From Parafrankia sp. EUN1f (GTDB lineage Bacteria > Actinomycetota > Actinomycetes > Frankiales > Frankiaceae): a stretch of 64,000 nucleotides of DNA. The translations under genes and the position numbers were made by a program. Shown here piece by piece: positions 6,924 through 23,842 of this stretch (positions are counted from its first letter, which is position 1; every line of letters begins with the position of its first letter). The notes under the pieces were generated by a model. That model was not told the origin of the DNA. It ran no database searches and was given only the letters and a program-made list of their open reading frames with translations. Location: the NCBI RefSeq assembly GCF_000177675.1, contig NZ_ADGX01000001.1, forward strand, positions 62,001-126,000, read 5' to 3'.

Positions 6924-8375
6924 TCAGATCTTGCCGTTGATGTAGTCGGTCAGCCGGGCGTGGAAGTGCCGGATCCGGCTCTCCTGGTAGGAGGCGAGCG
7001 TGATCCCGGGCTTGGTGCGCTTCAAGGCCTTCAGGCCCCGCTGGATCTGCGGCATGTTGATCCGATCCTGGTTGACAACTGCGCTGAGGCTGCCCAGCTC
7101 CGGGGCCTCGAGCCAGTCGCCATCGCGCTCCAGCCAGTGGATTTTGGCCGGCTTCGGGCGCGGTGCGCCTTCGGGGATGGGCGATAGGTAGAAGATCTCC
7201 AGAATGCAGGAATCGGGATCCTCGCCGTTGGGCCGGAAGCGGTAGTAGATGTTCGTCAGCCCGGAATCCCACGGGAAGAAGTTGGGGAAGACGAAGTACT
7301 GGATCGCGTCCATCAGCTGGTAGGCCGGCGTTGAACCCAGGTCGAGACCCAGACGCGGCGCGAGCTCGGTACGGATCGTCTCGACGATCCGCTGCCGAGC
7401 GGTCTGACCCTCAGGGAGGCCCTCGAGCACGTCGCGGGGGACATCGCGGGAATTGGTCCCGAGGCGCTCCTCGTAGAACGTACGCGCCTCGAGATAGCTC
7501 TCGTAGATGTCCTCTTCCTCGAGCTCACCGAGCGTGCTGCTGCTGACTCCGCGTGCCGAAAGGACCCGGTTGACGTTCTTGCCGAACAGGTCCACCTGAC
7601 TCATGAAGTCCTGGATGCTCGGCGCGGTCTGGGGGTGGGTCTGAGGCAGGTGGTAGGCCTCAATGAATGCCTCGAGGGCGACCTTCCAGTTGGCCGAGAT
7701 GACCTGGGCGACATGGGCGGACTTGAATCGGTTCTCATAGCCGGTGTGCTTGAAATGTTCCGGGATCGGAGCCAGGAACTCCTCAAGCGGCTCACAGTCC
7801 GGATCCATGTTGATGAAGACGAAGCCGCCCCAGGTGCCGACCTTGACCTCGGGGAGAGAGAACTTCTCCGGGTCGACGTGCTTGAAGTCCCACTCCACGC
7901 AGGGCAGGCGCTTCATATCGCCGTCCAGGTTCCAGGCCCATCCGTGGAACGGGCAGCGGAACTCGGGCACCCGGCCGTCAGTCGCCCGGAGGCGGCGGCC
8001 CCGGTGCAGGCAGGCGTTCTGAAGCGCCTTGATGGAGCCGTCCGGGGTGCGGGCTATGATGAACGAGTCGTTGATGATCTCGTAGACGATGTGGTCGCCG
8101 GGTTCGGGGATCTCCTCCTCGCGGCACGCCATCTGCCAGACCTTGCGCCACACGTGCTCGACCTCGAGCTCGAGGAACTCCCGCGACGTGTATCGGTCGA
8201 TCGGGATGTCGTCGTCGCCGAGGTCTTGCCAGGACGGCCGCATGAAGTCTGGGACCTCGTCCCCGTCTTCGCGGATGACCTGTTGGTATGTCTTGCCGGC
8301 TCGACCGGAGGTCCTCGCCTCGATCAGGGCCTCGACGTCGTCGTGATCGGACGTCGGCTCCGAAACCTGCGTCAT
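6924..8375 (-). CDS. Rieske non-heme iron oxygenase, large (alpha) subunit
   Basis: The protein is 483 aa from the ATG at 8375, which has GAGAGGA about 10 nt upstream; an in-frame upstream start at 8429 would overlap the next gene. The Rieske cluster motif is CLHRGRR, then 16-17 residues later CPFHGWAWN (about residues 120-145). The mononuclear iron region is EAFIEAYHLPQTHP (about residues 240-255). These assign it to ring-hydroxylating oxygenase alpha subunits, which cis-dihydroxylate, hydroxylate or demethylate hydrophobic rings using electrons from a ferredoxin. It follows the 66-aa protein and the 2Fe-2S ferredoxin in one transcript. No beta subunit is adjacent, so it is probably an alpha-only homomultimer. 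Confidence 0.92.
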   Translation of the reverse strand: MTQVSEPTSDHDDVEALIEARTSGRAGKTYQQVIREDGDEVPDFMRPSWQDLGDDDIPIDRYTSREFLELEVEHVWRKVWQMACREEEIPEPGDHIVYEIINDSFIIARTPDGSIKALQNACLHRGRRLRATDGRVPEFRCPFHGWAWNLDGDMKRLPCVEWDFKHVDPEKFSLPEVKVGTWGGFVFINMDPDCEPLEEFLAPIPEHFKHTGYENRFKSAHVAQVISANWKVALEAFIEAYHLPQTHPQTAPSIQDFMSQVDLFGKNVNRVLSARGVSSSTLGELEEEDIYESYLEARTFYEERLGTNSRDVPRDVLEGLPEGQTARQRIVETIRTELAPRLGLDLGSTPAYQLMDAIQYFVFPNFFPWDSGLTNIYYRFRPNGEDPDSCILEIFYLSPIPEGAPRPKPAKIHWLERDGDWLEAPELGSLSAVVNQDRINMPQIQRGLKALKRTKPGITLASYQESRIRHFHARLTDYINGKI

Positions 8376-8403
8376 GCCGTCGCCATTCCTCTCGGCTAAG
8401 TGC

Positions 8404-8604
8404 CTACTTCTCCGCATCGGTGTACGCACCCGCCACGTAATCGAGCATCACCTGGTCCGCGTACTTCAGCTCTCCGGAGACCGGCAGGCCGTCCCGGGTG
8501 AAGACACCGCTCTGCCCGGTCGCCGGATCTTCGACAAAGACATTTCCGTCAAGCAGGAGAGTGAAGATCATGTTCGTGCCACGCTGGACCAGCTTCTTAC
8601 TCAT
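8404..8604 (-). CDS. 66-aa protein between ferredoxin and Rieske oxygenase
   Basis: This small acidic protein (MSKKLVQRGTNMIF start, then DGNVFVEDPATGQSGVF) overlaps the 3' end of the ferredoxin gene by 8 nt and ends 28 bp before the Rieske oxygenase start, so all three are translated together. I do not recognise the family. It has no cysteine and no membrane segment. Its position suggests an assembly or accessory role for the oxygenase, which is inference from context only. Confidence 0.7.
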   Translation of the reverse strand: MSKKLVQRGTNMIFTLLLDGNVFVEDPATGQSGVFTRDGLPVSGELKYADQVMLDYVAGAYTDAEK

Positions 8605-8998
8605 CCTTTGCTCCTGACGTTGGATCGCTCTGCCGCCGTGCCGCTGGACCGGAGTTGGGGTGAGGTCGTCCAGGCACCTTCCGTACCCCGCGCTTCATCA
8701 CGATGATGTCGCCCTCCGGGCGCACCTGGCAGGCGAGCCGCAAGGTGCCTTCCCGAGATGTGTCGACGACCTCGGCCAAGCCGTCAGCCTCGAACGGCTC
8801 CACCGCATTGATCCGGTCGGCCCCCTCGATCACCGACATGAAACACAAGTGACAGGTTCCGAGGCCCTCGCAGCTGGTGGGCCATCGGATACCGTTCTGG
8901 ACTGCGGCATCGTAGACACTCTGCCCGGGTTCGATGCTGAACGTGATGTTCTTTGGTCGCACCGTGACCGTCGCCGCTAGATCGTCAAGTCGCTGCAC
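8597..8998 (-). CDS. [2Fe-2S] plant-type ferredoxin
   Basis: The protein is 133 aa from a GTG at 8998 with GGGAGG 6 nt upstream; an in-frame TTG at 9019 lacks a ribosome site. The cluster ligands are visible: SCEGLGTCHLC (three cysteines in the CX5CX2C pattern, counted with a spacing usual for this family) and LACQ about 40 residues later. It should pass electrons to the Rieske oxygenase encoded two genes downstream. The C-terminus has a basic, low-complexity tail of about 25 residues. The first gene of this operon, it is preceded by a copy of the ATGCAAAATAG element at 9025-9035. A decayed homolog lies at 532-648. Confidence 0.9.
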   Translation of the reverse strand: MQRLDDLAATVTVRPKNITFSIEPGQSVYDAAVQNGIRWPTSCEGLGTCHLCFMSVIEGADRINAVEPFEADGLAEVVDTSREGTLRLACQVRPEGDIIVMKRGVRKVPGRPHPNSGPAARRQSDPTSGAKDE

Positions 8999-9024
8999 GC
9001 GCCGCCTCCCAACGCGCAAATTTT

Positions 9025-9035
9025 ATGCAAAATAG
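9025..9035. promoter_or_regulatory. Cluster-1 operator copy A (CTATTTTGCAT on minus)
   Basis: ATGCAAAATAG on the plus strand, the reverse complement of CTATTTTGCAT, lies 27 bp upstream of the ferredoxin GTG. The same word recurs at 10779, 16284 and 16626, always in an intergenic promoter position. Confidence 0.6.
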
Positions 9036-9081
9036 TCGACATGTGTCTAGGGTCACTGGCAGGTGATCTGACCGTCTGCGA

Positions 9082-9921
9082 TCACAGCAGCCCGAGCTGG
9101 CCTGGGGCGTTGTAGTCGAGGCGGCGCCGGACGCCGTCCAAGGTGTCCGCCTCGATGCTGACGACCAGCTGAGTCACGCCTGCCGCGCGGTACTGGTCGA
9201 TCAGTTCTAGGGATAGCCGTGCGCGCGGCGTCAGCGTGATCTCGAAGCCCGCCAGGTCTCGTCCGATCTTCTCCGCGTGCTGGAAGATCACCGCGCGGGC
9301 CCGTGCGGCCTCGTCCGGGGTGTGGCCGAACCCGTACCAGCCCGAGCCGAACTCGGCCGCGTCTTGCAGTGCGACCGTGGCTTTGCCGCCGAGGACGAGC
9401 GGCGGCCCCTCGGGGCGGACCGGACGCGGATGGGCGTCGATGCCGTCGAACCAGACGAAGTCCCCATGGAAGACGGGTTCCTTCATCGTCCATAGTGCCT
9501 GCAGAGCGTGGAGGTGCTCCCGGAACCGGGCCCGGCGGCGATCCGCGGGAACGCCCATGGCCTGGTACTCCAGGTCGAGGTAGCCGACCCCCACGCCCAG
9601 GACCAGGCGGCCGTCGGAGAGGACGTCGACAGTCGCCGCTTCTTTGGCGAGCTGGACCGGTTGCCGCAGTGTCGCCGCCACGATCCCTGTGCACAGCTGG
9701 ATCCGCTCGGTGTGCGCGGCGAGGTAGCCGAGCGTCACCAGAGGATCGGCCATGGGCCAGTCGGGGTCGAGCGGAGGCTTGGGCTGGCGGGGGCTCGGCA
9801 GCACGAGATGCTCCCCCACCCACAGCGACTGGTAGCCAAGTCCCTCCGCATGAGCGGCCACCTCGCCCGCCTGCCGGGACACCATCCCCCCGACGTTCGC
9901 CCCGAAGAATCCAAGCTTCAT
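9082..9921 (-). CDS. LLM-class, probably F420-dependent oxidoreductase
   Basis: The protein is 279 aa from the ATG at 9921 (GAGGG 7 nt upstream). It has the luciferase-like barrel: MKLGFFGANVGG, then SLWVGEHLVLPS, LCTGIVAATLRQP, the GRLVLGVGVGYLDLEY motif near residue 115 and the RRARFREHLHAL helix. This matches the short mycobacterial/actinobacterial F420-type LLM group. It lies 31 bp downstream of a crotonase gene on the same strand, so the two are probably co-transcribed. It could reduce an enoyl intermediate or oxidise an alcohol; the direction and substrate are not visible. Confidence 0.88.
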   Translation of the reverse strand: MKLGFFGANVGGMVSRQAGEVAAHAEGLGYQSLWVGEHLVLPSPRQPKPPLDPDWPMADPLVTLGYLAAHTERIQLCTGIVAATLRQPVQLAKEAATVDVLSDGRLVLGVGVGYLDLEYQAMGVPADRRRARFREHLHALQALWTMKEPVFHGDFVWFDGIDAHPRPVRPEGPPLVLGGKATVALQDAAEFGSGWYGFGHTPDEAARARAVIFQHAEKIGRDLAGFEITLTPRARLSLELIDQYRAAGVTQLVVSIEADTLDGVRRRLDYNAPGQLGLL

Positions 9922-9952
9922 GAGATATCCCTCGTGAACCTCGCGTCGCCCG

Positions 9953-10708
9953 TCACCGGGAGGTGATCCGATCGGCCATCGCCGCACGGGCAGCAGCCCT
10001 CCCGGGGTGCTCGGACGTCGTGTCGAACGCCTGGGCCTCCAGCTCGAGCTGCTCGACGAGATGGCGGCGGTGGGAGTCCTTCAACAGCCCCTTGGTCACC
10101 GGCCCGCTCACCCCGGGCAGGGTCGCGAGGCGGGTCGCGAGGGCCACGGTGTGTGCCACGAGCTCGGCAGCCGGCACAACCTCGTTGACCAGGCCCCACT
10201 CGTGAGCCCGCTCGGCATCCAGCCGCGCATTGCCGAGGAGGAGCTCGAAGGCTCGTGTGTAACCCAGCACGCGCACCAGATGATGCGTCGCGCCGTTGTC
10301 CGGCGAGAGGCCGACCTCCGCGAACCCGGCCGAGAACAACGCGTTCTCCGAGGCCACCCGGAGGTCGGCCGCGGCCGCCAGGGACAGGCCCGCACCAAGC
10401 GCAGGCCCGTTCACCGCCGCGACGAAGGGGATGTCCAGGGCGTCGAGCTGCAGGATCACCGGGTGGTAGAAGCGGCGCATCCGACGTGAGGACGGGGAGT
10501 AGTCAGACTTCGGCGCGCGGATGTCGCCGCCGGCGCAGAAGCCGCGGCCGGCACCGGTCAGAACAACCGCCCCGGCCCGTCCTGGCGCCGTCGCCAGAGC
10601 GTCCGACAGGGCGTCGAACAGCTCGGGAACGACGGCGTTGAGCCTGTCCGGTCTGTTCAGGGTCAGCACCAGCACCGGCCCGTGCATCTCCTCGAGGACA
10701 AGGCTCAT
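9953..10708 (-). CDS. Enoyl-CoA hydratase/isomerase (crotonase) family
   Basis: The protein is 251 aa from the ATG at 10708 (GGGGGAGG upstream). Crotonase features are the first strand VLTLNRPDRLNAVV, the oxyanion loop GAGRGFCAGGDI near residues 60-70, and the second loop NGPALGAGLSLAAAADLRV near 105. The residue that matches Glu144 of rat crotonase is in FAEVGLSPDNGATH, where an acidic residue is present only as Glu in FAEVG and Asp in SPDNG; this is common in actinobacterial paralogs. It should hydrate or isomerise an enoyl-CoA in the cluster. It is divergent from the CoA-ligase gene at 10852, and the shared gap carries operator copy B. Confidence 0.88.
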   Translation of the reverse strand: MSLVLEEMHGPVLVLTLNRPDRLNAVVPELFDALSDALATAPGRAGAVVLTGAGRGFCAGGDIRAPKSDYSPSSRRMRRFYHPVILQLDALDIPFVAAVNGPALGAGLSLAAAADLRVASENALFSAGFAEVGLSPDNGATHHLVRVLGYTRAFELLLGNARLDAERAHEWGLVNEVVPAAELVAHTVALATRLATLPGVSGPVTKGLLKDSHRRHLVEQLELEAQAFDTTSEHPGRAAARAAMADRITSR

Positions 10709-10778
10709 CGACCTCCCCCTGTGATCCCCGGTGTCATGGCGACTGCCTTTCGTCGACGGATGCGGCCAGATCCGCCTA

Positions 10779-10790
10779 CTATTTTGCATG
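10779..10790. promoter_or_regulatory. Cluster-1 operator copy B
   Basis: CTATTTTGCATG sits in the 143-bp gap between the divergent crotonase (start 10708) and CoA ligase (start 10852). One site could control both. Confidence 0.6.
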
Positions 10791-10851
10791 ACATCACGGT
10801 AATGACAAGGGCGTCGCGGCGAGCGCCGCAGGCGTCAGAGCAGGAGAGCCC

Positions 10852-12498
10852 ATGACGGAGACCAAAACGCCCGCCGTGCCAGCCGCCCTCGGCGGCAACC
10901 CGTGGCAGGGAAAGACTGTCCACGACGCCTTGGCGCACGCGGTCAGCCGATGGCCCGATCACGAGGCACTCGTCGACGGGGACACGGTTCTGACCTTCCG
11001 CGAGCTTTCGGCGGCGCGCGACCGACTGGCGGTGGCCCTGTCCAAGCGCGGCATCGCGAACGCCACACACGTCGCGGTTCATCTCCGCCGCTCGTGGGAG
11101 CACGTGGTCCTGCTGCACGCGTTGTGGCAGCTCGGCGCGGTGGTGATCACGCTGAACACGGCCTGGGAGTCAGAGGAGCTGGCGTACGCGCTCACCTCGA
11201 CAGAGGCCCAGTTCCTCGTGACCAGCACCCACGTGGCAGGCAAGCCCGTCGATCATCGGATGGCAGCCCTGGGGTTACCCGCGTACGGCCCAGCTGACAG
11301 CTCGCCGTTCCCGCTGCTGCAAGCCGTGATTTCCGATGACCCGGACGCATCCCCGCACGAGTGGAGCCTACAGTCGTGGCTCCGGTCCGAGGCGGGGCGC
11401 GCACCGGACCCGGTGCGCAACCAGGATGCCGTCATCCTCTTCACCTCCGGCTCGACCGCTCGCCCCAAAGGCGTCGTGATCCGGCAGGAGGGTCTCCTTG
11501 GCTCCGCCCACTACTTCATGGAGCGGCTGGGGCTCGGCCCGGACGACCGCTTCCTCGGCCTGGGGCAGTACTTCCACGCCGGCGGTCTGGTCCAGCTCCT
11601 GGGAACCTGCCTCTACGGCACCAGCATGCACATCTTCGACGGCTTCCAACCAGAGGCGATGGCGCAGGCCGTTCACGAGCGGGGGCTCACCGCGACCACC
11701 GGCTTCGACCTGGTCCTCGGCCGGCTGTGGGACGATCTCGAGCGGAAGGGTTGGCACCGACCCAGCAAGGTCGGTTGCGCCCCCGGGCTGACGATGTACG
11801 ACAGGCTCGAGGCCGAAGGCGCGACGGTCGTCATGATGTACGCGATGAGTGAGGCCGCGAACATGGTCACGCTGACCGAACCCCGGCTCGGGTCCGAGAA
11901 GGGCCGGATGAGCAACGGCCGTCCCCTGCCGGGAGTCACCGTCCGCATCTGTGATCCGGCCTCGGGCGCGCCGCTGCCAGCAGGCACACCCGGCGAGATC
12001 TGCTTCACCGGCTGGAACCTGTTCTCCCGCTACTACGGCGCTCCCGACCTGACCCGGGAGTCCTTCGACGACGAGGGCTTCTTCCACACCGGCGATTACG
12101 GCTGGTTGGACGAGAACGGCCGCCTCTACTACCGTGGGCGCTACTCGTCGATGATCAAGACTGGCGGGGAGAACGTCTCCGAGACCGAGGTGGAGAGCTT
12201 TCTGGTCCGCGAAATTTCCGATGTCGTCGCGGCTGCCGTGGTGGGCATACCGGATACCCGGTGGGGGGAGGCCGTGGTGGCCTTCGTCGAACTCCGCCCG
12301 GGCGCGGCGTTCGACCCGGCAGCCCTTCGCCGGGCGTGTCGCGGCAGGATCGCCGGCTACAAGATTCCGAAGCGTTTCCTGCCCATCGCGCCAACCGAGT
12401 GGCCGACGACGCCGATGGGCAAGCTCCTCCGGAAGGAGCTTCGTCAGACCGCCATCGAGCAGACCGGTGGCGAGATAGCGGCACATCTCGGGTCATGA
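10852..12498 (+). CDS. Acyl-CoA ligase (AMP-dependent synthetase)
   Basis: This 548-aa protein carries the adenylate-forming signatures: P-loop FTSGSTARPKGV near residue 200, the A5-type segment MMYAMSEAANMVTL near 330, the hinge region FFHTGDYGWLDENGRLYYRGR near 410, and the C-terminal lysine motif PMGKLLRKELR near 525. It activates a carboxylic acid through an acyl-AMP to its CoA thioester. The substrate-binding pocket cannot be read for specificity. It is the only plus-strand catabolic gene between 1 and 16.6 kb. It shares its promoter gap with the crotonase, and it ends inside the left arm of a strong terminator. Confidence 0.9.
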   Translation: MTETKTPAVPAALGGNPWQGKTVHDALAHAVSRWPDHEALVDGDTVLTFRELSAARDRLAVALSKRGIANATHVAVHLRRSWEHVVLLHALWQLGAVVITLNTAWESEELAYALTSTEAQFLVTSTHVAGKPVDHRMAALGLPAYGPADSSPFPLLQAVISDDPDASPHEWSLQSWLRSEAGRAPDPVRNQDAVILFTSGSTARPKGVVIRQEGLLGSAHYFMERLGLGPDDRFLGLGQYFHAGGLVQLLGTCLYGTSMHIFDGFQPEAMAQAVHERGLTATTGFDLVLGRLWDDLERKGWHRPSKVGCAPGLTMYDRLEAEGATVVMMYAMSEAANMVTLTEPRLGSEKGRMSNGRPLPGVTVRICDPASGAPLPAGTPGEICFTGWNLFSRYYGAPDLTRESFDDEGFFHTGDYGWLDENGRLYYRGRYSSMIKTGGENVSETEVESFLVREISDVVAAAVVGIPDTRWGEAVVAFVELRPGAAFDPAALRRACRGRIAGYKIPKRFLPIAPTEWPTTPMGKLLRKELRQTAIEQTGGEIAAHLGS

Positions 12499-12545
12499 CA
12501 CAGCTGCCCGGGCGCACTCAGAGTGCGCCCGGGCAGCGTGTCATG
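12494..12545. terminator. Long bidirectional hairpin between convergent genes
   Basis: A 16-bp perfect inner stem (CTGCCCGGGCGCACTC and its complement, one-base centre at 12520) extends to 25-26 bp with one bulged A. It includes the stop codon of the CoA ligase and ends 25 bp before the stop of the convergent acyl-CoA dehydrogenase. No T-run follows, as is common in actinomycetes. Confidence 0.85.
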
Positions 12546-12569
12546 GGCCGGGTAGCGCGTGTGAGACGC

Positions 12570-13766
12570 TCAGTAGCTCCGCTCGAGCCCGAGCACCTTC
12601 TCAGAGATGAAGTTGAGCACCATCTGGTTGTTGACGGGCGCGATGCGGTGCGGACGCAGCTCAATCCAGTGCCGGCCGATGTGATACTCCGTGGCGAATG
12701 AGTATCCGCCGTGGATCTGCATCACGTGGTCGGCTGTCTTGAACGCGGCCTCCGAGGCAAGGTACTTCGCCGTGTTCGCCAACCGTCCGATCTCTTTGGC
12801 AGGTGCGCCGGCATCATAGGCGTCCGCCGCTGCACGAACGGCGAGAGCCGCCGCGCTGAGCTGGATATAGGAGTCCGCGAGAGGGTGCTGCACCGACTGG
12901 TTCTTGCCGATCGTACGGCCGAAGACCACCCGCTGCCCTGCGTACTCCACACCACGCTCGAGGCACCAGCGCCCCATTCCGACACATTCGGCCGCCAGCA
13001 GGATCCGCTCCGCGTTGACACTCGCCAGAATCTGCCGGAAGCCCTGCCCCTCCTCACCGACCAGGTCGGAGACATCGACCGGGAGATCGTCGAACCACAC
13101 CTCGTTGGAGTCGACGGCGTTCCGACCCAGCTTGGCGATTCTCTTGATCGTGACCTGCGGAACCTTCAGGTCGGCCATCAGCATCGACATGCCCGAGGTG
13201 GTCTCCGTGCCGTCCGACGCCCGCGCGGAGGTCCGGCAGAGCAGCAGGCACTTCTCGGCACGCTGCGCGTGTGAGTTCCAGACCTTCTGGCCGTTGACGA
13301 TGTACTTGTCGCCGTCCCGCACCGCGGTGGTGCTGATGCGTGACGTGTCCGTGCCGGCGTCAGGCTCGGTCACCCCGAAGCTGACCGAGAGCTCACCGGC
13401 CACCATGCGGGCGAGGTACTTCTCCTTGAGCTCCGGGCTCCCGTACTTGATGATCGAGCTGAGCGCGATGTGGCTCGAGTGCACTGTGCTGCACGCGGCG
13501 GTCGCTCCGCCACCCGCGCCGACTTCCTCCAGCATGGCCGCGCCCTGACTCAGGGTGGCTCCGCCACCGCCGTACTCCTCAGGAACGGTCATCGTGGTGA
13601 AGCCGCTCTCAACGAAATCCTGGAAGTACTCGGCCGGAAACTCTTTCTTCCGCTCCTTCTCACTCCAGTACTCCAACGGGTACTTGGCGTTGATTGCTCG
13701 AACGGCCTGCCGGATCTCGTCGTGCCCGACAGTGGTGAGCGGCAGGTGCTCGGACCTGATCGTCAT
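12570..13766 (-). CDS. Acyl-CoA dehydrogenase
   Basis: This 398-aa protein has the standard fold: TVPEEYGGGG near residue 60, the FAD/substrate loop SVSFGVTEPDAGTDTS near 125, NGQKVWNSHAQ near 160, FGRTIGKNQSVQHPLAD near 270 and IHGGYSF near 350. At the usual C-terminal catalytic-glutamate position it reads HRIAPVNNQM, so the base is probably elsewhere, possibly in the helix that starts NAERILLAAE, as in isovaleryl-CoA-dehydrogenase-like members. It would make the 2,3-enoyl-CoA for the crotonases. Its start overlaps the end of the AtuA-domain gene by 4 nt (ATGA), which indicates translational coupling. Confidence 0.9.
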   Translation of the reverse strand: MTIRSEHLPLTTVGHDEIRQAVRAINAKYPLEYWSEKERKKEFPAEYFQDFVESGFTTMTVPEEYGGGGATLSQGAAMLEEVGAGGGATAACSTVHSSHIALSSIIKYGSPELKEKYLARMVAGELSVSFGVTEPDAGTDTSRISTTAVRDGDKYIVNGQKVWNSHAQRAEKCLLLCRTSARASDGTETTSGMSMLMADLKVPQVTIKRIAKLGRNAVDSNEVWFDDLPVDVSDLVGEEGQGFRQILASVNAERILLAAECVGMGRWCLERGVEYAGQRVVFGRTIGKNQSVQHPLADSYIQLSAAALAVRAAADAYDAGAPAKEIGRLANTAKYLASEAAFKTADHVMQIHGGYSFATEYHIGRHWIELRPHRIAPVNNQMVLNFISEKVLGLERSY

Positions 13767-14125
13767 CGGTGCTCCTCCTCATCGGCGCCCGAGTTCAGCA
13801 ACGCGAACTCGGTGTCGGTCAGCTCGATCTCGAGAAAGCACAGGGCGTCAGCGAGTGCCTTGCCCTGTGGGTCCAGTCGCAGCGTGCTCGTCCCACCACG
13901 GCCGAGAATCCCGTGCAGCAGGAAATTCAACGCGTAAAGGTTCGGCAGCTCGAACCGCTCAGTCTGTCGGGCACGATCTGAGAAATACTCCTGCACCACC
14001 GCGGCCGTGAGCTCCCGCTCCAACGCGACGAACCACCGCTCGTGCCGCGCCGCGACGCCGATGTTCGCCGTACCGCCCTTGTCCCCGGAACGGGCATACG
14101 CGATTCGTCCGACTGGGACCCTCAC
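13763..14125 (-). CDS. AtuA C-terminal-like domain protein
   Basis: This 120-aa protein contains YARSGDKGGTANIGVAAR near its N-terminus, the hallmark of the small domain that in many proteins is fused to the C-terminus of AtuA (acyclic terpene utilization) proteins. Here it is a separate gene that overlaps the AtuA-type gene by 4 nt at its start and the acyl-CoA dehydrogenase by 4 nt at its end. The two AtuA parts probably form one complex. The reaction is not established; the family was first linked to citronellol and geraniol catabolism in Pseudomonas. Confidence 0.85.
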   Translation of the reverse strand: MRVPVGRIAYARSGDKGGTANIGVAARHERWFVALERELTAAVVQEYFSDRARQTERFELPNLYALNFLLHGILGRGGTSTLRLDPQGKALADALCFLEIELTDTEFALLNSGADEEEHR

Positions 14126-15495
14126 CGTGACCCACCTGCCTCGATCAGTTCGACGGTCGGTTCGATGAACTCGGCCGGGACGAGTGCCGGCCAGTAGCTC
14201 AGCACCCCGGACACCCGGCCCCGCCCGGGCAGGAGGGTGGTCTTGCCCGGCGGACCGTGGAACACGGTGCTCAGCTCCACCACCGCGCGTTGGAGGTCGG
14301 CACGGTGGTGTGAACGCGCGGCGAAGCGCAGCACCACCTCGATCAGCTCGCCGGCGGGTGGGCTACGGCGCTCATGGACCGCGCCGGTTCCGATCAGATC
14401 CCAGCGCACCTCCTCGATGTCCAGCTTCAGGCGGGCCAAGCGCCGCTCCAGCACCTCCCTAGCCCGCTCGGCACGCGCCACCGCCCCCGGCGCGGAGTAG
14501 AGCCACAGCGCGCTCGTCGAGTACCCGTCCTCGTAGCTCGCCGAGACCTTGAGCGTCGTCGGGGCCGCCCGACCAGTCGCTCCGTCAATCTCCACCAGAT
14601 CACGGTCGAGCTGCCGGACTCGCAGGGTCGTCCAGTCCGCGCTGACATCCGGAGTCAGATAGGCACGCGGATCGCCGATCTCGTAGAGAAGCTGCTCGAT
14701 GGTCGTCGTGACATCCACGACGCCCCCGCTGCCGGGGGTCTTGCCGAGCTCGATGCGCCCATGCGAGTCCACCTCCACGATCGGGGAACCGACATCCTCC
14801 ATCGCCGGTACGTCCTCCCAGCCGGCCTGATGGTTACCACCCGTCACGTGGGCACCACACTCAATCAGGTGGCCGGCGACGATGCCCGCCGCAAGGAGGT
14901 CCCACTGGTCGGCCTTCCAGCCGAAGGAGTGTCGCAATGCCGCCAGGGTCAGAGACGGGTCGGCGACCCGGCCGCAGATCACCACGTTGGCCCCACGCCG
15001 CAGCGCCTCGACGACCGGTTCCGCGCCGATGTACGCATTGGCACTGGCCAGCCGATCGGCGATGAGGGAGAACGGCTCACCGGTCTCGATGTTCCGCAGG
15101 TCGGCCCCCTGCGCGCGGAGCTCATCGATCCGGGAGATGAGGTCGTCGCCGGCGACGGCCGCGATGCGGACCCGGTCCCCAAGACCGAGCTCCTCAGCGA
15201 GCTCGAGCACCCGCCGCGCACATCCTGACGGATTCATCCCGCCCGCGTTACAGATGATCGTGATACCGCGTTCGACGGCGTCACCGAGGCAGTCACGCAG
15301 AATGGGCACGATATCCGAGGCGTACCCAGCGCTCGGATCGCGCTTCAGCTGCTTGCGGAGCACGGACATCGTGACCTCGGCCAGGAAGTCCATCACCAGA
15401 TAGTCGATACGGCCGCCGCGGACCAGCCTGCCAGGGGCCGTGATGTCATCGCCCCAGTAGCCAAGCCCACCGCCAATACGGACAGTCGCCGTCAT
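14122..15495 (-). CDS. AtuA-family (DUF1446) protein
   Basis: The protein is 457 aa from the ATG at 15495, which overlaps the crotonase stop (ATGA); 15507 is an alternative. Family features are GGGLGYWGDDI at the start, YLVMDFLAEVTMSVL, then ICNAGGMNPSGCA and the AYIGAEPVVEAL and VICGRVADPSLTLA segments. AtuA proteins are required for acyclic terpene utilisation in pseudomonads, and actinobacterial homologs occur in clusters with crotonases and acyl-CoA dehydrogenases. Exact chemistry is unknown. Here the chain crotonase, AtuA, AtuA small domain, acyl-CoA dehydrogenase is one overlapping operon, so it likely acts on a CoA thioester. Confidence 0.88.
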   Translation of the reverse strand: MTATVRIGGGLGYWGDDITAPGRLVRGGRIDYLVMDFLAEVTMSVLRKQLKRDPSAGYASDIVPILRDCLGDAVERGITIICNAGGMNPSGCARRVLELAEELGLGDRVRIAAVAGDDLISRIDELRAQGADLRNIETGEPFSLIADRLASANAYIGAEPVVEALRRGANVVICGRVADPSLTLAALRHSFGWKADQWDLLAAGIVAGHLIECGAHVTGGNHQAGWEDVPAMEDVGSPIVEVDSHGRIELGKTPGSGGVVDVTTTIEQLLYEIGDPRAYLTPDVSADWTTLRVRQLDRDLVEIDGATGRAAPTTLKVSASYEDGYSTSALWLYSAPGAVARAERAREVLERRLARLKLDIEEVRWDLIGTGAVHERRSPPAGELIEVVLRFAARSHHRADLQRAVVELSTVFHGPPGKTTLLPGRGRVSGVLSYWPALVPAEFIEPTVELIEAGGSR

Positions 15496-16256
15496 CGGCC
15501 CTTCCATTCCGGTCGGCGCCCCTCACGGAAGGCACGCGGCCCCTCGCGAGCGTCCTCGCTGTCGTAGACGTGGCGGAAGAGCTCCGCGCCTATCGACGCA
15601 GTGGCGGAGACCCCGGCCTCGGCTCCGACCCGCATAAGCCACTTGGACGCCCGAACCGACAACGGCGCGTTCTTTGCGATCGTCTCCGCAATCGCCCACG
15701 CGCGGGGCAGCAGCTCAGCCTGTGGCAGGACCTCGTTGACCAGGCCGACCTCGTACGCACGTCGGGCGGAGATCGGCTGGGCGGTGAGCAGCAGCTCCGC
15801 GAGGACGCGCCTCGGGAGCATGCGCGTCAGTGGTGCGGCCCACGGGGCGCCACGGCTCCACTTGGCCTCCGAGATCGCGAACGAAGCGGACTCCGCAGCG
15901 AGGCAGATGTCGCCGAACTGCGCGAGCCGGAAGCCGCCCGCGTAGGCGGCACCGTTGACCGCGGTGATGACCGGCTTCTCGATGAAGTCGTCGGGGCCGA
16001 ACTCGGCGAAGTAGTCCGGTGGGGGCTGCCCGGTGCCGCGCCCCGCCAGCTCCTTGAGGTCCGCCCCCGCGCAGAAGGCCTTGTCACCCGCACCTGTCAC
16101 GATGACCACACGATGCCGGTCATCCGCAGCGAACTCCCGCATCGCGGCCGACAACGCGGCCCGCAGCTCCGCGTTCACCGCGTTGCGGGCCTCAGGCCGA
16201 TCGAGGGTGAGCAACAGGACTCCATCTCGCGACTCGCTCTTCAGGACACTGCCCAT
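15492..16256 (-). CDS. Enoyl-CoA hydratase/isomerase (crotonase) family
   Basis: The protein is 254 aa from the ATG at 16256 (an upstream in-frame start at 16268 is possible). It has LLTLDRPEARNAVNAEL at the N-terminus, the oxyanion loop AGDKAFCAGADLKELAG near residue 60, and NGAAYAGGFRLAQFGDICLA near 100. It is the first gene of an operon of four overlapping genes that includes AtuA and acyl-CoA dehydrogenase. Operator copy C lies 28 bp upstream. It probably hydrates or isomerises the unsaturated CoA ester of the pathway, working beside the crotonase at 9953-10708, from which it differs clearly. Confidence 0.88.
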   Translation of the reverse strand: MGSVLKSESRDGVLLLTLDRPEARNAVNAELRAALSAAMREFAADDRHRVVIVTGAGDKAFCAGADLKELAGRGTGQPPPDYFAEFGPDDFIEKPVITAVNGAAYAGGFRLAQFGDICLAAESASFAISEAKWSRGAPWAAPLTRMLPRRVLAELLLTAQPISARRAYEVGLVNEVLPQAELLPRAWAIAETIAKNAPLSVRASKWLMRVGAEAGVSATASIGAELFRHVYDSEDAREGPRAFREGRRPEWKGR

Positions 16257-16283
16257 GACACACTCCATCCCATGGTGTGTCTA

Positions 16284-16295
16284 CCATTTTGCATG
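16284..16295. promoter_or_regulatory. Cluster-1 operator copy C
   Basis: CCATTTTGCATG lies 28 bp upstream of the crotonase start at 16256. It differs from copy B by one base. Confidence 0.6.
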
Positions 16296-16625
16296 CACAA
16301 CGACGCGGCGTCAATGTGTTGGACATGGGACATCCTCCCGAGCCATGGAGACCTCATGACACAAAGTCCGCTCGTAGGTACGCTGCGCACGCCGATTCTC
16401 ACGGAGGACTGTCACCCCGCGAGCGAGAGGGCCAACGCGTTGCAGGCGATCAGCTCGACGCCAGCCGAACATCCTTGGGCGAGGCCTCCGAGCCCTCACC
16501 TCAGACGGGATGGATCTTGACGCGGACATGCTCGGACCGAGTAACACCCCCGCAGCGAAGGCACTCCCAGGGCGCGATGGCGACGCGAGGCAATCTGAAG
16601 CCACACTTTCCACCGACGCATCTTG

Positions 16626-16637
16626 CATGCATAATAG
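16626..16637. promoter_or_regulatory. Cluster-1 operator copy D
   Basis: CATGCATAATAG, reverse complement CTATTATGCATG, lies 28 bp upstream of the chosen SRPBCC start. CATAAT inside it could also serve as a -10 box. Confidence 0.5.
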
Positions 16638-16665: not shown

Positions 16666-17139
16666 GTGCGGAAGGTTTACGTGAGTACGGTGTTCGACCA
16701 GCCCGTCGATGACGTGTGGACTGTCCTCGGAGACTTCCACCGCGTCGACAGATGGATCGAGATCGTCCACGCCTCCGAGCCTGAGGACGGCGACCAGGCG
16801 GCGACGATCGGCTCCATCCGGAAGTTGACGGTCGGCGATGATCGACACACGACCCGGGAGCGTCTCGTCTCGTACGATGCGATGAACCGTCAGATGACCT
16901 ACGAGCTGCCCGACCTGCCGCCCTTCGGCATGAGCCACTACCTGGGCACGATTCGCGTGCTGCCCGTCACGGACTCCGGCAAGACCTTCATCGAGTGGTA
17001 CGGCGCGTACGCGTGCGACGATATCGCTGATGTTCCCACGATCGAGGCCAGTCTCCGCAGGATCTACACCGCCTTCCTCGCGGATCTGCGCCGGTATCTC
17101 GAGTCGACCGCAGTGCCTCGCCGCCTGAGCAAAGACTGA
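16666..17139 (+). CDS. SRPBCC-family (polyketide cyclase-like) protein
   Basis: The protein is 157 aa from the GTG at 16666 (GGAGG 5 nt upstream); an ATG at 16654 in frame would place the ribosome site inside the gene. The pattern VYVSTVFDQPVDDVWTVLGD followed by FHRVDRWI and, near the end, an amphipathic helix (ASLRRIYTAFLADLRRYLES) is the START/SRPBCC helix-grip fold that binds hydrophobic ligands. In catabolic clusters such proteins are cyclases, dehydratases or carriers. It is controlled from a gap with operator copies C and D, so it belongs to the same regulon. Confidence 0.8.
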   Translation: MRKVYVSTVFDQPVDDVWTVLGDFHRVDRWIEIVHASEPEDGDQAATIGSIRKLTVGDDRHTTRERLVSYDAMNRQMTYELPDLPPFGMSHYLGTIRVLPVTDSGKTFIEWYGAYACDDIADVPTIEASLRRIYTAFLADLRRYLESTAVPRRLSKD

Positions 17140-18172
17140 GACCTGCGGATCGGCCAGGGAGGGCGTGTACCCGCCCGGTGATCGAGCTTCAGGGTCTCAG
17201 TCAGGCCGATCTTGGCACGCCTGTCGTCGAGGCACGCCCATGCTCACGTTAATCCCGAGGAGAACACATCGCGGGATCGTCCGGCCCCAAAGCCCGTCGC
17301 TGATCGATGAGATCGTCCGTGAGGGCACCCAGACGATGCCGCCGCGGCATTGGAAGCCAAGGTCGATATCCACATCGGCGAGCTTGCCGCTCAGTGCGAC
17401 AACTGCAGCCGTCGGCTGTAGGCGTGGGCTGCCCGCGGGAGCGGTAGGGATGGCCGAGCTGCACGGCCTGATCTCGGAACGGATTGACCAGCGCGCCGGG
17501 CTGAACGGCGCCGCCGGCAGTGACCGCAGCGCGTCGCGCTCGGCCGCGTCGAACACGACCAGCGGGGCTGCGCCGTCCAACGGCCGGGACGCCCATGGCG
17601 GCAGCGCGCGGCCAGCTTCGGCGATCGCTGCCCGCCAGGGGTGCGGCGACCGAGCCGCGAGAGTGACCACGTCGTGACAGCACGGCTCCCCCGGGTAGGC
17701 AGCCGGCGGCGATGGCGCGCGGGGTCTGGCGGCTGGGAGCAACGCGCGCCTCGGCCGGCGACCGCCGCACTCGATCTCCGCGGCTTCCCCTGACAAAACC
17801 GGCCAGACCGCGAACACGCCGGAGCCCTGCCAGCTCTAAAGGTTGGTGATGGTGTGTCCCGGGCCATCCGCCGCACAAGCGGACGGTCTACCATTCCCGA
17901 TCCTGAGCACCGTTGCAGGTCACGGGCCCGACGCGACCGGGCCGGCCAAGCCCTGTTGCCACACAAGGCCCATATCTTGTGGCAACGTCCACGGCCACAG
18001 GCCTCGTGACCTCCCACCCGAAAAGCGGATGGTCAACTCCACCGTTTACGCAGGTCAACCGGGGTCCGAGACAGGCCGTCACCGGGATCATGCGACGCCG
18101 TTGCCACACTCGTTGCCATATAACGATCAAGAAGTGATCGACAAATCGTGCTATTTCCGCAGGTCAAAGGGG
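17140..18172. other. Gene-poor scar region with GTTGCCA repeats
   Basis: About 1 kb without a gene I can support; the long open frames on the minus strand (17.2-18.0 kb) are low-complexity Arg/Ala/Pro rich and mutually overlapping, as expected by chance in high-GC DNA. It ends next to a partial tRNA. GTTGCCA-type words cluster at 17955-17961, 17980-17986 (inverted), 18102-18108 and 18112-18118. Confidence 0.5.
17955..17986. repeat. Inverted repeat GTTGCCACA...
   Basis: GTTGCCACACAAG and CTTGTGGCAAC form an imperfect inverted repeat with a 2-base bulge and an 8-base loop. Two direct copies of GTTGCCA follow about 120 bp downstream. Confidence 0.5.
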
Positions 18173-18219
18173 TGGGCAGGGGCGGGGTCGAACCGCCGAC
18201 CTTCCGCTTTTCAGGCGGC
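18173..18219 (-). tRNA. Partial tRNA-Phe(GAA)-like 3' half
   Basis: On the minus strand there is an anticodon loop CTGAAAA with a near-complete stem (CCGC/GCGG), variable loop, a perfect T-arm (GGCGG TTCGACC CCGCC) and an acceptor 3' strand CCTGCCC plus A. The sequence upstream of it does not form a D-arm or a 5' acceptor strand that pairs with CCTGCCC. It is therefore a fragment, as left when an integrative element uses a tRNA 3' end as attachment site. An unusual complete tRNA is possible but less likely. Confidence 0.5.
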
Positions 18220-18312
18220 AGGTGGGCGCCTGAACCGATCGGGCCCGGGTGACGGTCCGGTAGCACCGTCGCCGCGACCAACCTCGGACAGCCGCGGCGA
18301 CGTCTATCGAAC

Positions 18313-19416
18313 TCAGGCGGAGGACCTCACGGCGAGGCGGTCGCGGACCTGGCGGTAACGTTCGCGGCCGGCCAGAACCGGGCCGGTCTCGAGGTCCTCC
18401 TCGACGCCCAGGTCGTGCAGCGCGGCCCGGGTGAAATGCGGAATGGCGAGGCCCATCTGCGCGAAACGCAGCTCGTCGCTGGCGCCGCTGTCGAACAGCA
18501 TCGCTCCGACGAGCAGGATCACGCAGGTCTTGAAGGTCTGGAACGCCTTGTACCACTCCCGGTGCCGGACCGGAAGGCCCGTGAGTTTCTCGTAGTACGC
18601 GAGGGCCTCGTCGAAGGTGAGTGCCCCGGGACGGCCGGTGATGAAGACCGGCGTCGCCCAGAACAGTTCGAGGTAGCCGAGGTCCGCCAGCGGGTCGCCG
18701 AGGGCGGCCAGTTCCCAGTCGAACACGCCGGTCACCTCGCCGTCAGCGAAGGCGAAGTTCCCCGGTTTCACGTCGCCGTGCACGAGGGTGACCGTCTCCG
18801 AGGGCGCGGGCTGCTGCTCCCGCAGAACGTCGAGCAGCCGTTCCAGGGCGGGCAGCCGGTCCTTGCGCACCCGGTGCAGCTCCGACGCCCAGCGCCCGAG
18901 CTCGTCGTCCAGGTACGTCCGGCCGTCTCCGAGCGCGACCAGGCCGCTCTCCTGCAGGTCGACCCGGTGGATCGCGGCGATCTGCTCGACGATCCCCTCC
19001 GACATGCGGCGGATCGTGGCGGGGCTCGCGTCGAGCTCGGCGGGGATCCGGTCCTCGTAGACCTCGCCGGGCACCCGCTCCATCACGTAGAACGGGCGTC
19101 CCAGCACGGAGCCGGAGGGCTCCAGCCACAGCACCGCCGGGCTGCGGACGGCGCTGTGCTCCAGCCCGCGCAGAATGGTGAACTGCCGTTCCATGTCGTA
19201 CGGCTCGAGCAGCCCGGGGCTTCGCGGGCTGAGCCGGAGGACGACCTCCTGGCGGTGGTCGGTGCCGCTGGCGCGCCACGCGAGCGTGAGCACGCTGATC
19301 TCCGCCGAATAGCCGAACATCACCCGGTCGGCGTTTTCGATCCGGAGGTCGGTGGCTGCCGGCAGCTGGTCCCGCAGCCATGTGGATAATCGCTCGAGAC
19401 CGTTGTCGTCCCGCAT
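18313..19416 (-). CDS. APH-type phosphotransferase family protein
   Basis: This 367-aa protein has the aminoglycoside-phosphotransferase/choline-kinase fold: the nucleotide-binding beta strands at the N-terminus (VVLRLSPRSPG), YVMERVPGEVYEDRIP as hinge, the catalytic loop LVHGDVKPGNFAF near residue 195 and the metal-binding VFDWELAALGDPLADLGY near 215. It resembles the ACAD10/11-type kinase domain that occurs with acyl-CoA dehydrogenases, which in known members phosphorylates 4-hydroxyacyl-CoA. A similar role is plausible here because acyl-CoA dehydrogenase pairs lie in the same regulon. It lies 48 bp downstream of the P450 gene on the same strand. Confidence 0.85.
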   Translation of the reverse strand: MRDDNGLERLSTWLRDQLPAATDLRIENADRVMFGYSAEISVLTLAWRASGTDHRQEVVLRLSPRSPGLLEPYDMERQFTILRGLEHSAVRSPAVLWLEPSGSVLGRPFYVMERVPGEVYEDRIPAELDASPATIRRMSEGIVEQIAAIHRVDLQESGLVALGDGRTYLDDELGRWASELHRVRKDRLPALERLLDVLREQQPAPSETVTLVHGDVKPGNFAFADGEVTGVFDWELAALGDPLADLGYLELFWATPVFITGRPGALTFDEALAYYEKLTGLPVRHREWYKAFQTFKTCVILLVGAMLFDSGASDELRFAQMGLAIPHFTRAALHDLGVEEDLETGPVLAGRERYRQVRDRLAVRSSA

Positions 19417-19464
19417 GGTGCACCTGTTTCCTTGTCGTCTTTCCCTGTCGTCCCCGCCGGTCGT

Positions 19465-20682
19465 TCAGCTCGGGGTGAACCGGATGCGGATCCGGTCGTA
19501 CGCCCGAGCGAAGGTGGCGGGGAGAATTTTCGGCTCGGTCGGGTCGACGAGCTCCCAGTCCGGCATCCGGCGCAGCAGTTCCTCGAACATCACCCGCAGC
19601 TCGAGGCGGGCCAGATGAGCACCCAGGCAGACATGGGTGCCGAAGCCGAACGCCACATGCCGGGGAGCGGTCCGGGCGACGTCCAGGGTCTCCGGGTCGG
19701 CGAAAACCCGCGGGTCGCGGTTCGCCGCCGGGTAGAGCAGCAGGAGCTGGTCGCCGCGGCGGATGTGCTGGCCGTGCAGCTCGTGATCCTCCGTCGCGGT
19801 GCGCCGCATGTTGAGCACCGGCGACACCCACCGGATGAACTCCTCGATGGCCTTGGACGCCAGCAGCTCGGGCCGCTCGAGCAGCAGGGCCCGCTGATCG
19901 GGGTGCAGGGCGAGGTCGCGGATCATCGTGCCGATGACGGTGCGGGTCGTCTCCGCGCCGCCGTCGAGCACCAGGAGGATCTCGTCGAGAACCTTCTTGG
20001 TGCTCCAGTCGGGCCGGTTCGCCCACAGCGAGATGAGGTCGTCGCGTGGCTCGGCGCGCCGGGCCTTGACGACCTCGAGGGTGCCCTCGTAGAAGTCCTT
20101 GATGAGGCCGGGGATCTCCGGATGCGTGACGTGCGGTGGCCCGTCCGGTGACGTCTGGCCGGAGAGCAGCATGATCTGCTCGGACCAGCGCCGGACCCGC
20201 TCCCACTGGTTCCTCGGGTAGCCGAGCAGATCACTGATCATGATGGCGGGAAGGCGTGAGGCGATCGCCTCGATCGCCTCACACTCCCCGAGCGGGGTCA
20301 CCGCGTCGAGGATCTCCGTGACGACGTCGCGGACGTGCTGCTCGTGCCGGCGCACCGCGCGCGGGGTGAACTGGCTGGCGACGAGATTGCGCTGCGCCTG
20401 GTGGTCAGGGTCATCCATATTGATCATGGATAGTTCTTCGCGCAGGTCGATGTGGGGGCGGGAACCTTCGAAGGACGAATAGCGCGCCCCGTCCTTCTCG
20501 ACGGTGACGACATCTTCGAAGCGGGAGATCACCCACAGCCGCTGCGCTGGATCCCAGAAGACCGGCGCCTGGTCCCTTAACCACCGGTAGGCATCCCACG
20601 GATCAACGTAGAACTCCGGGTCCAGAACGTTGATGCGCCGCACGGAGTCGCCCTCGGTCTCGGTCTCGGCCGTCGTCGTCAT
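19465..20682 (-). CDS. Cytochrome P450
   Basis: The protein is 405 aa from the ATG at 20682, normal for bacterial class I P450s; the open frame extends 77 codons further but without family similarity. Visible are NMDDPDHQAQRNLV (helix C), LDGGAETTRTVIG (I-helix with the acid-alcohol Glu-Thr pair), the ExxR motif region EEFIRWVSP and the heme loop FGFGTHVCLGAHLA near residue 350 with the axial cysteine. No membrane anchor. It overlaps the upstream gene by 4 nt (ATGA), which fixes the start. No ferredoxin gene is adjacent. The substrate is unknown but likely hydrophobic. Confidence 0.93.
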   Translation of the reverse strand: MTTTAETETEGDSVRRINVLDPEFYVDPWDAYRWLRDQAPVFWDPAQRLWVISRFEDVVTVEKDGARYSSFEGSRPHIDLREELSMINMDDPDHQAQRNLVASQFTPRAVRRHEQHVRDVVTEILDAVTPLGECEAIEAIASRLPAIMISDLLGYPRNQWERVRRWSEQIMLLSGQTSPDGPPHVTHPEIPGLIKDFYEGTLEVVKARRAEPRDDLISLWANRPDWSTKKVLDEILLVLDGGAETTRTVIGTMIRDLALHPDQRALLLERPELLASKAIEEFIRWVSPVLNMRRTATEDHELHGQHIRRGDQLLLLYPAANRDPRVFADPETLDVARTAPRHVAFGFGTHVCLGAHLARLELRVMFEELLRRMPDWELVDPTEPKILPATFARAYDRIRIRFTPS

Positions 20683-21854
20683 GAGTACGACACCTGGTGG
20701 TCCGAGTCGGCGGTGAGGCCGAGCTCCGGCCATTCGCCACCGATGATGCTTTCCATGATTCCGTAACCCACCGCGTCTCCCTCCCGGACCCGGACAGGCG
20801 TATCGCGGAACTGGCCGAGTTCGCGCAACGACTCGTCCGACCAGCAGTCCGCGATGTACTCGCCGTCCAGGTGCAGCTTTCCCTTCCAGCTTCCGTGAAT
20901 CTGGCCCTTCCACTCGCCGTAGAGCCCGGTCTTGAGGAAGAAGCCGGAGTCCCCCAGCGCCTCGACCTCGATGACCCGCAGCTCACCGGACTCCATGGTC
21001 AGGTGCAGCTCGCCACCCTTCACGAAACGGGTGCGCGGGTCGTAGGTCATGCGCGGCTCGGCGTGGCGCACCGCGTTCTGCCGCCCGTCCGCCTCGTTCA
21101 CATAGGCCGACGTGTAGCCCCAGGCTCCACCGGCGATGAAGATGGCCGTCTCGTAGTAGGTTCCGTCGGCGCGGCGAAGGAACACCGGCGCCCATTTCAT
21201 GAGCCCCTTCACCGGGGCGGCGCCCGGCTTCGGCGTGGCGGAGCGGCGCGGCGCGAGATCGGTGGGAGCCGCACCGACGGCCTGCCGCACACCCCAGGAA
21301 TGATCCCGGTAGCCGAACCACGTCTCCGGGCGCACCTCGTATGTCTCACCGTTGACGGTGACCGTGCCGGAGACCCAGCCGCCCTGGTGATAGCGGACGA
21401 TGTTCACGTCGACGCGGCCGGTGTGCCGGTTGCGGACGAGGTTGCGATCCTCGAAGAACGGCTGCGTCACCCCGGACAGGACCAGGTCGAAGGAGATCGG
21501 CTGGATATCGTTCTCCGCCAGTCGGAACCGCACCTGGGTCAGCGGCTCGACGATCTCGTACTCGATCGGGCCGATGCCCATCAGCTCGGGCGCGGTGCGC
21601 AACTCGCGACTACCCCGGACGGTCCATTGTTCGCGGCCCCGGGAGACGCCGGCGAAACCGTCGATGATGCCACGGTTCTGGTACTTCCCCAGGCCGAAGT
21701 CGACCTGCAGCGAACCGTCGACGCTGGCGAGCGAACCCCAGATCTTCTCGGTCCAGGCCAGGTCGGACTCGGACACCGTGGCGAACGTGTCGACGATCTG
21801 GTGGGTGAGAGTCTCGTCCGCGCCGCGCAGCGCGCCGATGTCCTTCGGTGCCAT
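20679..21854 (-). CDS. Conserved protein of unknown function (lipocalin/AttH-like beta fold suspected)
   Basis: The protein is 391 aa from the ATG at 21854 (GAGGGG 9 nt upstream; ATG at 21863 is an alternative). It is rich in beta strands and contains YEVRPETWFGYRDHSWGVR at about residue 175-195, a motif found in actinobacterial proteins with two beta-barrel halves resembling CrtC/AttH hydroxyneurosporene-synthase folds (DUF7064/7065-type, recalled, not verified). Such proteins sit next to P450s and SDRs in lipid and steroid clusters. Start of an operon with the P450 and the phosphotransferase. Role not known; binding or hydration of a hydrophobic substrate is a guess. Confidence 0.7.
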   Translation of the reverse strand: MAPKDIGALRGADETLTHQIVDTFATVSESDLAWTEKIWGSLASVDGSLQVDFGLGKYQNRGIIDGFAGVSRGREQWTVRGSRELRTAPELMGIGPIEYEIVEPLTQVRFRLAENDIQPISFDLVLSGVTQPFFEDRNLVRNRHTGRVDVNIVRYHQGGWVSGTVTVNGETYEVRPETWFGYRDHSWGVRQAVGAAPTDLAPRRSATPKPGAAPVKGLMKWAPVFLRRADGTYYETAIFIAGGAWGYTSAYVNEADGRQNAVRHAEPRMTYDPRTRFVKGGELHLTMESGELRVIEVEALGDSGFFLKTGLYGEWKGQIHGSWKGKLHLDGEYIADCWSDESLRELGQFRDTPVRVREGDAVGYGIMESIIGGEWPELGLTADSDHQVSYS

Positions 21855-22268
21855 CTGGCTCATCCCCTCAAGACCATGGGCGCGGCTGGCGACTGGCGGC
21901 GACTGCGCCGGCCGGCCGGCCGCTCCACAGCTACTGCGGCTACTGATGCACTCGATCCCGGTGACGAGCCCCCGGCCGTGCCGCGTCACGATGCCCCATG
22001 CGTGACATGGTGGCACATAATCTCATTTTTGTCTCACCTCGGACGCTTCCATCTCCCGCCCGGCACCGCAGCCGACCCCAGACCCATCCGCAGCCAGCCC
22101 GCGGACATCGAAGGGTAAGACATCAAGTGCCACTTGTAACGCGGCCGGTCAAATGGTTAGCTCTGTCGCGTACGCCCCTCCGAGCGCGCGGCACAGGCCC
22201 CCAGCCAGTGGAAGCCCTTAGCGACCGCTCGCCGGCGATCCGGAAGGGAAGAGGAGCCGGGATGATGG
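21855..22268. other. Divergent promoter region (about 410 bp)
   Basis: It lies between the minus-strand P450 operon and the plus-strand SnoaL/SDR genes. It carries the palindrome at 22124-22136; nothing else is clear. Confidence 0.55.
22124..22136. promoter_or_regulatory. Palindrome CAAGTGCCACTTG
   Basis: Perfect 13-bp palindrome with a single central C, placed in the divergent promoter region. It resembles a regulator half-site pair; the regulator is not identified. Confidence 0.35.
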
Positions 22269-22808: not shown

Positions 22809-22903
22809 ACGTCAAATAATCGAAGGCGGCGGCCAGCTCCCGGTCTGGCCGTCATTGTCGTCGTACCGGCGGCAACTGGTTTCCGGGTCGGAGGGTGGGC
22901 GAC

Positions 22904-23755: not shown

Positions 23756-23842
23756 AAAGCCGCGGTCACCAGGGCGCGGCAGGCCACGTCCGCGACGGCG
23801 GCTTCGCGAGGCCGGGCGGTGGGCGCAGGCAGGAGGGGAAGG

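Follow-up and report, generated by a model that had tools for sequence, protein, structure and literature searches.

The word CYATTWTGCAT occurs four times in the window, i.e. the whole stretch of 64,000 nucleotides that was analysed (C396:62001-126000), and its copies are most likely docking sites for one switch protein, which is encoded ~20 kb to the left of the window. Judged from the sequence, we consider it probable that these four copies are operators of a single self-regulated, pathway-specific repressor of the GntR/FCD type, which would govern an island of ~75 kb (C396 3.5-79 kb). We infer that the protein binds these sites and that it represses instead of activating, and likewise the kind of ligand. 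The putative operators and target genes in the window are listed with window coordinates and strand, and with scores in bits for the operators.

9015..9036 (-): operator ACTATTTTGCATAAAATTTGCG, 5' of the ferredoxin-Rieske operon, centre 27 bp before GTG 8998; 28.7 bits
10778..10799 (+): operator ACTATTTTGCATGACATCACGG, within the crotonase/CoA ligase divergon; 23.8 bits
16283..16304 (+): operator ACCATTTTGCATGCACAACGAC, 5' of the crotonase-AtuA operon, centre 37 bp from ATG 16256; 28.9 bits
16617..16638 (-): operator ACTATTATGCATGCAAGATGCG, 5' of the SRPBCC gene, centre 38 bp from GTG 16666; 28.4 bits
6577..6598 (+): predicted operator TCCAAATTGCATGAATTTTAGG, absent from the earlier note, 114 bp 5' of an FAD-dependent oxidoreductase gene; 17.4 bits
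692..713 (-): marginal predicted operator GACTTTCTGCATGAGATCCAAG, ~290 bp 5' of a P450 gene; 14.1 bits, weak
6924..8998 (-): target operon for 2Fe-2S ferredoxin (GTG 8998), a small 66-aa gene product and Rieske oxygenase
9082..10708 (-): target genes for crotonase (9953-10708) and luciferase-like flavin oxidoreductase (from 9082)
10852..12498 (+): target gene for CoA ligase (AMP-binding)
12570..16256 (-): target operon for crotonase, AtuA, an AtuA ferredoxin-like protein and acyl-CoA dehydrogenase
16666..17139 (+): target gene for an SRPBCC/polyketide cyclase-2 protein

All four copies reported in the earlier note match the word exactly (9025-9035, -; 10779-10789, +; 16284-16294, +; 16627-16637, -). 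Three of its positions (9025, 10779 and 16284) were right, while the fourth, given as 16626, was one base off. The distances of 27-80 bp to gene starts hold as well: from centre to likely start we measured 27, 37 and 38 bp at the single promoters, and in the divergon 80 bp to the crotonase start (10708) and 63 bp to the CoA ligase start (10852). The cluster had further been described as devoid of a regulator gene, and indeed none is seen in its part within the window.

When up to two mismatches to CYATTWTGCAT were allowed, the window contained 10 matches as compared to a shuffle mean of 7.7, i.e. no excess. Thus, only the exact word is informative and the test is the whole genome. We therefore scanned the home genome of this Frankiaceae strain (9.35 Mb, 396 contigs) and used the reversed word as control. 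Five exact matches were obtained, every one located on C396, versus none for the control. Equal abundance of the word elsewhere in the genome had been named beforehand as the observation that speaks against a shared element, and the number of exact copies outside C396 is zero. At one mismatch, word and reversed control both yielded 22 matches; three extra matches of this kind are also found on C396, at 12330, 45790 and 45814. As the word had been chosen from the four window copies, independent evidence comes from the fifth copy and from the later tests.

This fifth exact copy (C396:41571-41581) is located ~46-47 bp 5' of the likely start of a regulator gene (C396:41628-42323, +), which encodes 231 aa from a likely ATG at 41628 preceded by GGAGG and lies on the same contig, 20.4 kb to the left of window position 1. 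The predicted location of the regulator gene outside the window, possibly to the left of position 1, thus appears well founded, as the sole other exact copy precedes a gene of the GntR/FCD type. The N-terminus of the protein comprises a GntR winged helix-turn-helix (PF00392, E 1.7e-14) and the C-terminus an FCD domain (PF07729, E 4.3e-16), both over the curated cut-offs, and by these two domain matches it is a FadR-subfamily (FCD) regulator of the GntR family. None of the NCBIfam equivalog cut-offs considered (PhnR, CsiR, NanR, LldR, FadR, PdhR, GlcC) was reached, the best being TIGR03338 with 73 bits versus 271.5. In the FCD domain, Asn124, His128, His172 and His194 do not vary among five aligned sequences, a set which would fit a metal-carboxylate pocket. 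The FadR-like DNA-contact residues (Arg 28 and SR-T at 37-39; numbering according to PMC4494728, alignment by eye) are kept in all aligned orthologues. A MeaB-type GTPase is encoded 3' of the regulator gene, and two near-copies of the element, CTGTTATGCAT, are present 24 bp apart at C396 45790 and 45814, 5' of a SnoaL-FMO gene. The regulator's own site reaches only 17.2 bits and is located inside the tail of the upstream ORF, which counts against our main reading. The crotonase ORF in question (C396:40032-41606) continues as a Pro/Arg-rich tail across the regulator's operator, which may be a true elongation or stem from a frameshift.

The architecture of the element became apparent from Mycolicibacterium, which has a copy whose 22 bp are perfectly palindromic (ACTATTATGCATGCATAATAGT). 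This places the centre of the site at GCA/TGC, so that CYATTWTGCAT corresponds to one good half-site; the other half-site is degenerate in most copies. The palindrome consensus reads YATNNTGCA/TGCANNATR, with the slash marking the centre. When the core was scored around every site, a single secondary maximum stood out clearly, located at precisely ±12 bp. This additional box was detected in 12 of 40 flanks in C396 (0.6 on average at other offsets) and in 10 of 28 flanks in other genera (0.4 on average). Likeness between sites is limited to the ~22-bp site and the 12-bp box, and the flanks differ. Sites C396:4570, 17164 and 55529 group as a sub-type of their own (GCCATACTGYATGCCAA), whose second box lies at a distance of 12 bp, and resemble each other more closely than the window sites.

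To delimit the regulon, a weight matrix was built from 12 sites of other genera and run over all of C396, recording merged sites of at least 13 bits. It detected 19 sites in C396 3.5-79 kb, none in the other 57 kb and 8 in a 400-kb control comprising five other contigs of the home genome; at 15 bits the respective numbers were 17, 0 and 2. All 19 sites fall outside confident ORFs (called by codon-position GC, ends trimmed by 30 nt), though 68% of C396 3.5-79 kb is coding. Since the sites of the other genera had been picked with a matrix derived from the C396 founder sites, both sets are not fully independent; 13 of the 19 sites are not founders, and intergenic confinement to one stretch was not a selection criterion. 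Neighbouring genes encode ABC transporters, crotonase together with an F420-type reductase, CoA-transferase III, Fe-ADH, FMO, acyl-CoA dehydrogenase/SDR and FAD reductase, in addition to the four window targets. The candidate sites 6522 and 62692 and a second tandem box at 45813 are all weak. The view of the earlier note that the element marks one regulon with a regulator encoded elsewhere is supported, whereas the palindrome, ~15 further, mostly weaker sites and the ~75-kb span had been overlooked.

The right part of C396 is ordinary DNA of the genus: it is 94% identical in genome G004, and homology with genomes G001 and G005 starts at 87-89 kb. The regulon therefore occupies the same region as a stretch of accessory DNA with a right edge at 79-87 kb and a left edge that may lie beyond the contig end. 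The segment that separates the last site from the genus-conserved DNA (window 17140-25000, C396 79.1-87 kb) contains no operator, yet carries catabolic-looking genes (P450, phosphotransferase-like, SDR).

Within the Frankiaceae the regulator is rare, being represented by one orthologue with 75% identity (Frankia sp. AiPa1) and by a paralogue with 66% identity on contig C198 of the home genome. The other five genomes of the genus yielded neither a close regulator orthologue nor an AtuA match at the set cut-offs, and the best AtuA match within the family outside the home genome is 45% identical. Concordantly, the element occurs at background level in other Frankiaceae, where the regulator is missing save for the one orthologue. 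Outside the family, alignment queries against named genomes identified regulator orthologues with 75% identity in both Blastococcus endophyticus and Nocardioides immobilis, with 64% in Mycolicibacterium sp. P9-22, and in Amycolatopsis acidicola one with 50% plus another with 53% that is part of an AtuA gene cluster. Near the orthologues of these four genera, homologues of the island enzymes are encoded: AtuA (65-71%), acyl-CoA dehydrogenase (82%), crotonase (74-75%), Rieske (67%), CoA-transferase (56-59%) and E1 subunits (48-56%).

The element is likewise found in these genera. Mycolicibacterium carries CCATTTTGCAT 5' of the regulator gene and CCATTCTGCATGCAA at two other places, and the copy in Amycolatopsis reads ACCATATTGCATGCAAATTGCG. 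In Amycolatopsis and Nocardioides, the orthologous promoters carry counterparts of site ACCATTTTGCATGCACAACGAC of the crotonase-AtuA operon, and these two and the home strain all retain TGCATGCANNATNGTAG directly 5' of crotonase. The element upstream of the regulator's own gene is exact in the home genome and in Mycolicibacterium, but degenerate in Frankia AiPa1, Nocardioides and Blastococcus; that precisely these closest orthologues have merely a degenerate own-gene element counts against our main reading. In Mycolicibacterium, a predicted site is also present near a thiolase gene with a ChsH2-like protein. Furthermore, predicted operators L148:4383 and L148:15749 of Mycolicibacterium sp. P9-22 (G395:C14) flank an Mce-type operon (MlaE permease, Mce4_CUP1), and the perfect palindrome of this genus is located directly 5' of an FMN-dependent dehydrogenase gene.

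Palindromes resembling TTGGATCCAA or TTTCGTATCCAA are located near more distant GntR/FCD relatives, i.e. in Nocardia and Gordonia (L122:5582, L125:5582, L124:5620) and, 5' of the GntR gene, in Actinomycetospora (L114-L119). These palindromes are apparently sister operators that differ at central positions. Where the TGCATGCA element is present, the regulators retain Arg at helix-turn-helix position 28 as well as the SRTP motif, while relatives with TTTCGTATCCAA- or TTGGATCCAA-like sites exhibit another residue at position 28 and SRIP or SRLP in this small sample. Positions 28 and 39 are among those correlating with operator bases in the subfamily (PMC4494728). The DNA-reading residues of the regulator would thus fit the operator type, as far as can be seen from few proteins.

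Several explanations were weighed against a repressor encoded on C396. It is very hard to believe that the copies reflect chance similarity or a mobile repeat. The two-mismatch count in the window, which equals that of the shuffles, would suit chance, and a transposase-like ORF near the 12320 site (44% identical over 95 aa to a Mycolicibacterium one) would suit a mobile repeat. However, likeness between copies ends with the site and its 12-bp box, i.e. there is no long flanking identity, and chance was rejected on account of the counts in the genome, the controls and the other genera. We also regard it as highly improbable that the element is a core promoter box, such as the -10 region of an alternative sigma factor. 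Its reverse reading holds CAWAAT, which is near TATAAT, and the sites are near starts, but dyad symmetry, the perfect palindrome and the 12-bp phasing are at odds with such a box. Moreover, orientation is mixed: the element runs with the gene at the regulator, at the two SnoaL-FMO sites and at the ferredoxin, and opposite to it at crotonase-AtuA and SRPBCC. A special-sigma promoter was accordingly rejected on the grounds of mixed orientation and dyad symmetry.

The remaining two alternatives concern the identity and the mode of action of the protein. Recognition of the operators by the C198 paralogue (C198:11396-12052), either in place of the C396 protein or jointly with it, has a low probability in our estimate. 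Both proteins have the same recognition helix, SRTPLREAL, with Arg at position 28, and given their 66% identity they might share operators. On the other hand, the sites cluster on C396 around the C396 regulator gene and include its own promoter, while C198 has one weak match only (9.3 bits), near the gene of the paralogue itself. The C198 paralogue adjoins acyl-CoA mutase-like genes (large part and B12-binding part). That the GntR protein acts as an activator, at all or some promoters, is unlikely. Divergons and sites 114-290 bp from the start (6577 and 692) do not force repression. However, three of the four window sites, the strongest ones, are centred 27-38 bp 5' of likely starts; the ferredoxin-Rieske operator ACTATTTTGCATAAAATTTGCG overlaps a -10-like hexamer (TAAAAT) and the SRPBCC operator ACTATTATGCATGCAAGATGCG includes another (CATAAT). 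This geometry fits a repressor blocking RNA polymerase, and repression is the mode of action of well-studied GntR/FCD proteins, e.g. NanR (PMC8012715).

According to the preferred reading, i.e. a repressor encoded by the C396 gene, a dimer of the regulator would bind the palindrome and further dimers might join via the weaker box exactly 12 bp away that is present at many sites. In the absence of substrate, the regulator would occupy the -10 regions or the DNA beside them and thereby shut off its own promoter as well as about a dozen or more further ones in the island. An acidic pathway intermediate bound in the FCD pocket would then release it from the DNA. FadR-subfamily proteins respond to small carboxylic acids (PMC4494728); together with the invariant Asn/His residues, this makes an acid intermediate the obvious candidate inducer. 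As to the pathway substrate, a hydrophobic ring or terpenoid-like compound may be surmised from the genes present, which include those for Rieske oxygenase, P450, FMO, AtuA, CoA ligase, CoA-transferase and paired acyl-CoA dehydrogenases, and from the predicted Mycolicibacterium sites near the Mce-type operon and the thiolase gene. The enzymes tested from the home genome reached no curated equivalog cut-off, so that the families do not allow naming the substrate.

FadR-subfamily regulons have been catalogued by Suvorova et al. 2015 (PMC4494728). According to this work, operators follow the rule of a palindrome with TKGT/ACMA boxes and 2 or 3 nt between GT and AC; the 2-nt groups are GntR, HpxS, HypR, MdcY, PrpR and UxuR, exceptions from the rule are NanR and BioR, and GntR regulators have extra boxes 7-12 nt from the centre. 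The C396 system shares with these regulons the GntR helix-turn-helix and FCD domains, an AT-rich palindrome with a central 2-nt gap between conserved pairs, weaker extra boxes within this distance and a local catabolic regulon. In contrast, its operator replaces the GT/AC pairs by GC/GC (TKGC-AT-GCMA), and the regulon has ~19 sites spread along 75 kb and includes pathway genes for AtuA, Rieske and CoA-transferase. NanR of E. coli is likewise an FCD-type GntR protein with repeated boxes close to promoters, and several of its dimers bind side by side on one operator (PMC8012715), which for the C396 regulator is a proposal. NanR recognizes three direct GGTATA repeats and has an N-terminal extension (PMC8012715), whereas the C396 system features palindromic boxes 12 bp apart and a protein that starts almost directly with the helix-turn-helix domain. 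Atu1419 of Agrobacterium fabrum (PDB 6z74), a GntR/FCD protein controlling hydroxycinnamic acid degradation (PMC7797058), and McbR (PDB 4p9f) rank among the nearest proteins of solved structure when sequences are aligned over most of their length. However, both are only distant relatives (E 1e-12 to 1e-15), and operators and targets differ from those of the C396 regulator.

The TetR-family proteins KstR and KstR2 of actinobacterial steroid degradation are local repressors with many operators in a large CoA-thioester catabolic island. The C396 regulon resembles theirs in the many operators spread over a large CoA-thioester island and in the predicted Mycolicibacterium site before an Mce-type uptake operon, but differs in the GntR/FCD regulator and in the operators.

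While the regulator family is already known, neither the regulon nor the GC-type operator core was found described in the literature searched, which covered few subscription journals. By sequence comparison, the 75-kb block of degradation genes appears related to blocks in several other soil bacteria. We tentatively propose, as a possibility still short of an even chance, the spread of a portable module among the Frankiaceae and the genera Mycolicibacterium, Amycolatopsis, Nocardioides and Blastococcus, with several regulator dimers side by side per operator. This module would consist of the GntR/FCD regulator, its GC-type operator including boxes phased by 12 bp, and a pathway of the AtuA/Rieske/CoA-thioester type, the substrate of which is probably hydrophobic. 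One regulator and one operator would join some 50 genes that lack an assigned function into a single pathway and mark its end, and the compound releasing the regulator would provide a direct route to the pathway substrate. The operator would also serve to detect this pathway in further genomes, and the related clades, in which the operators are changed, would constitute a small test of how the specificity of GntR proteins changes.
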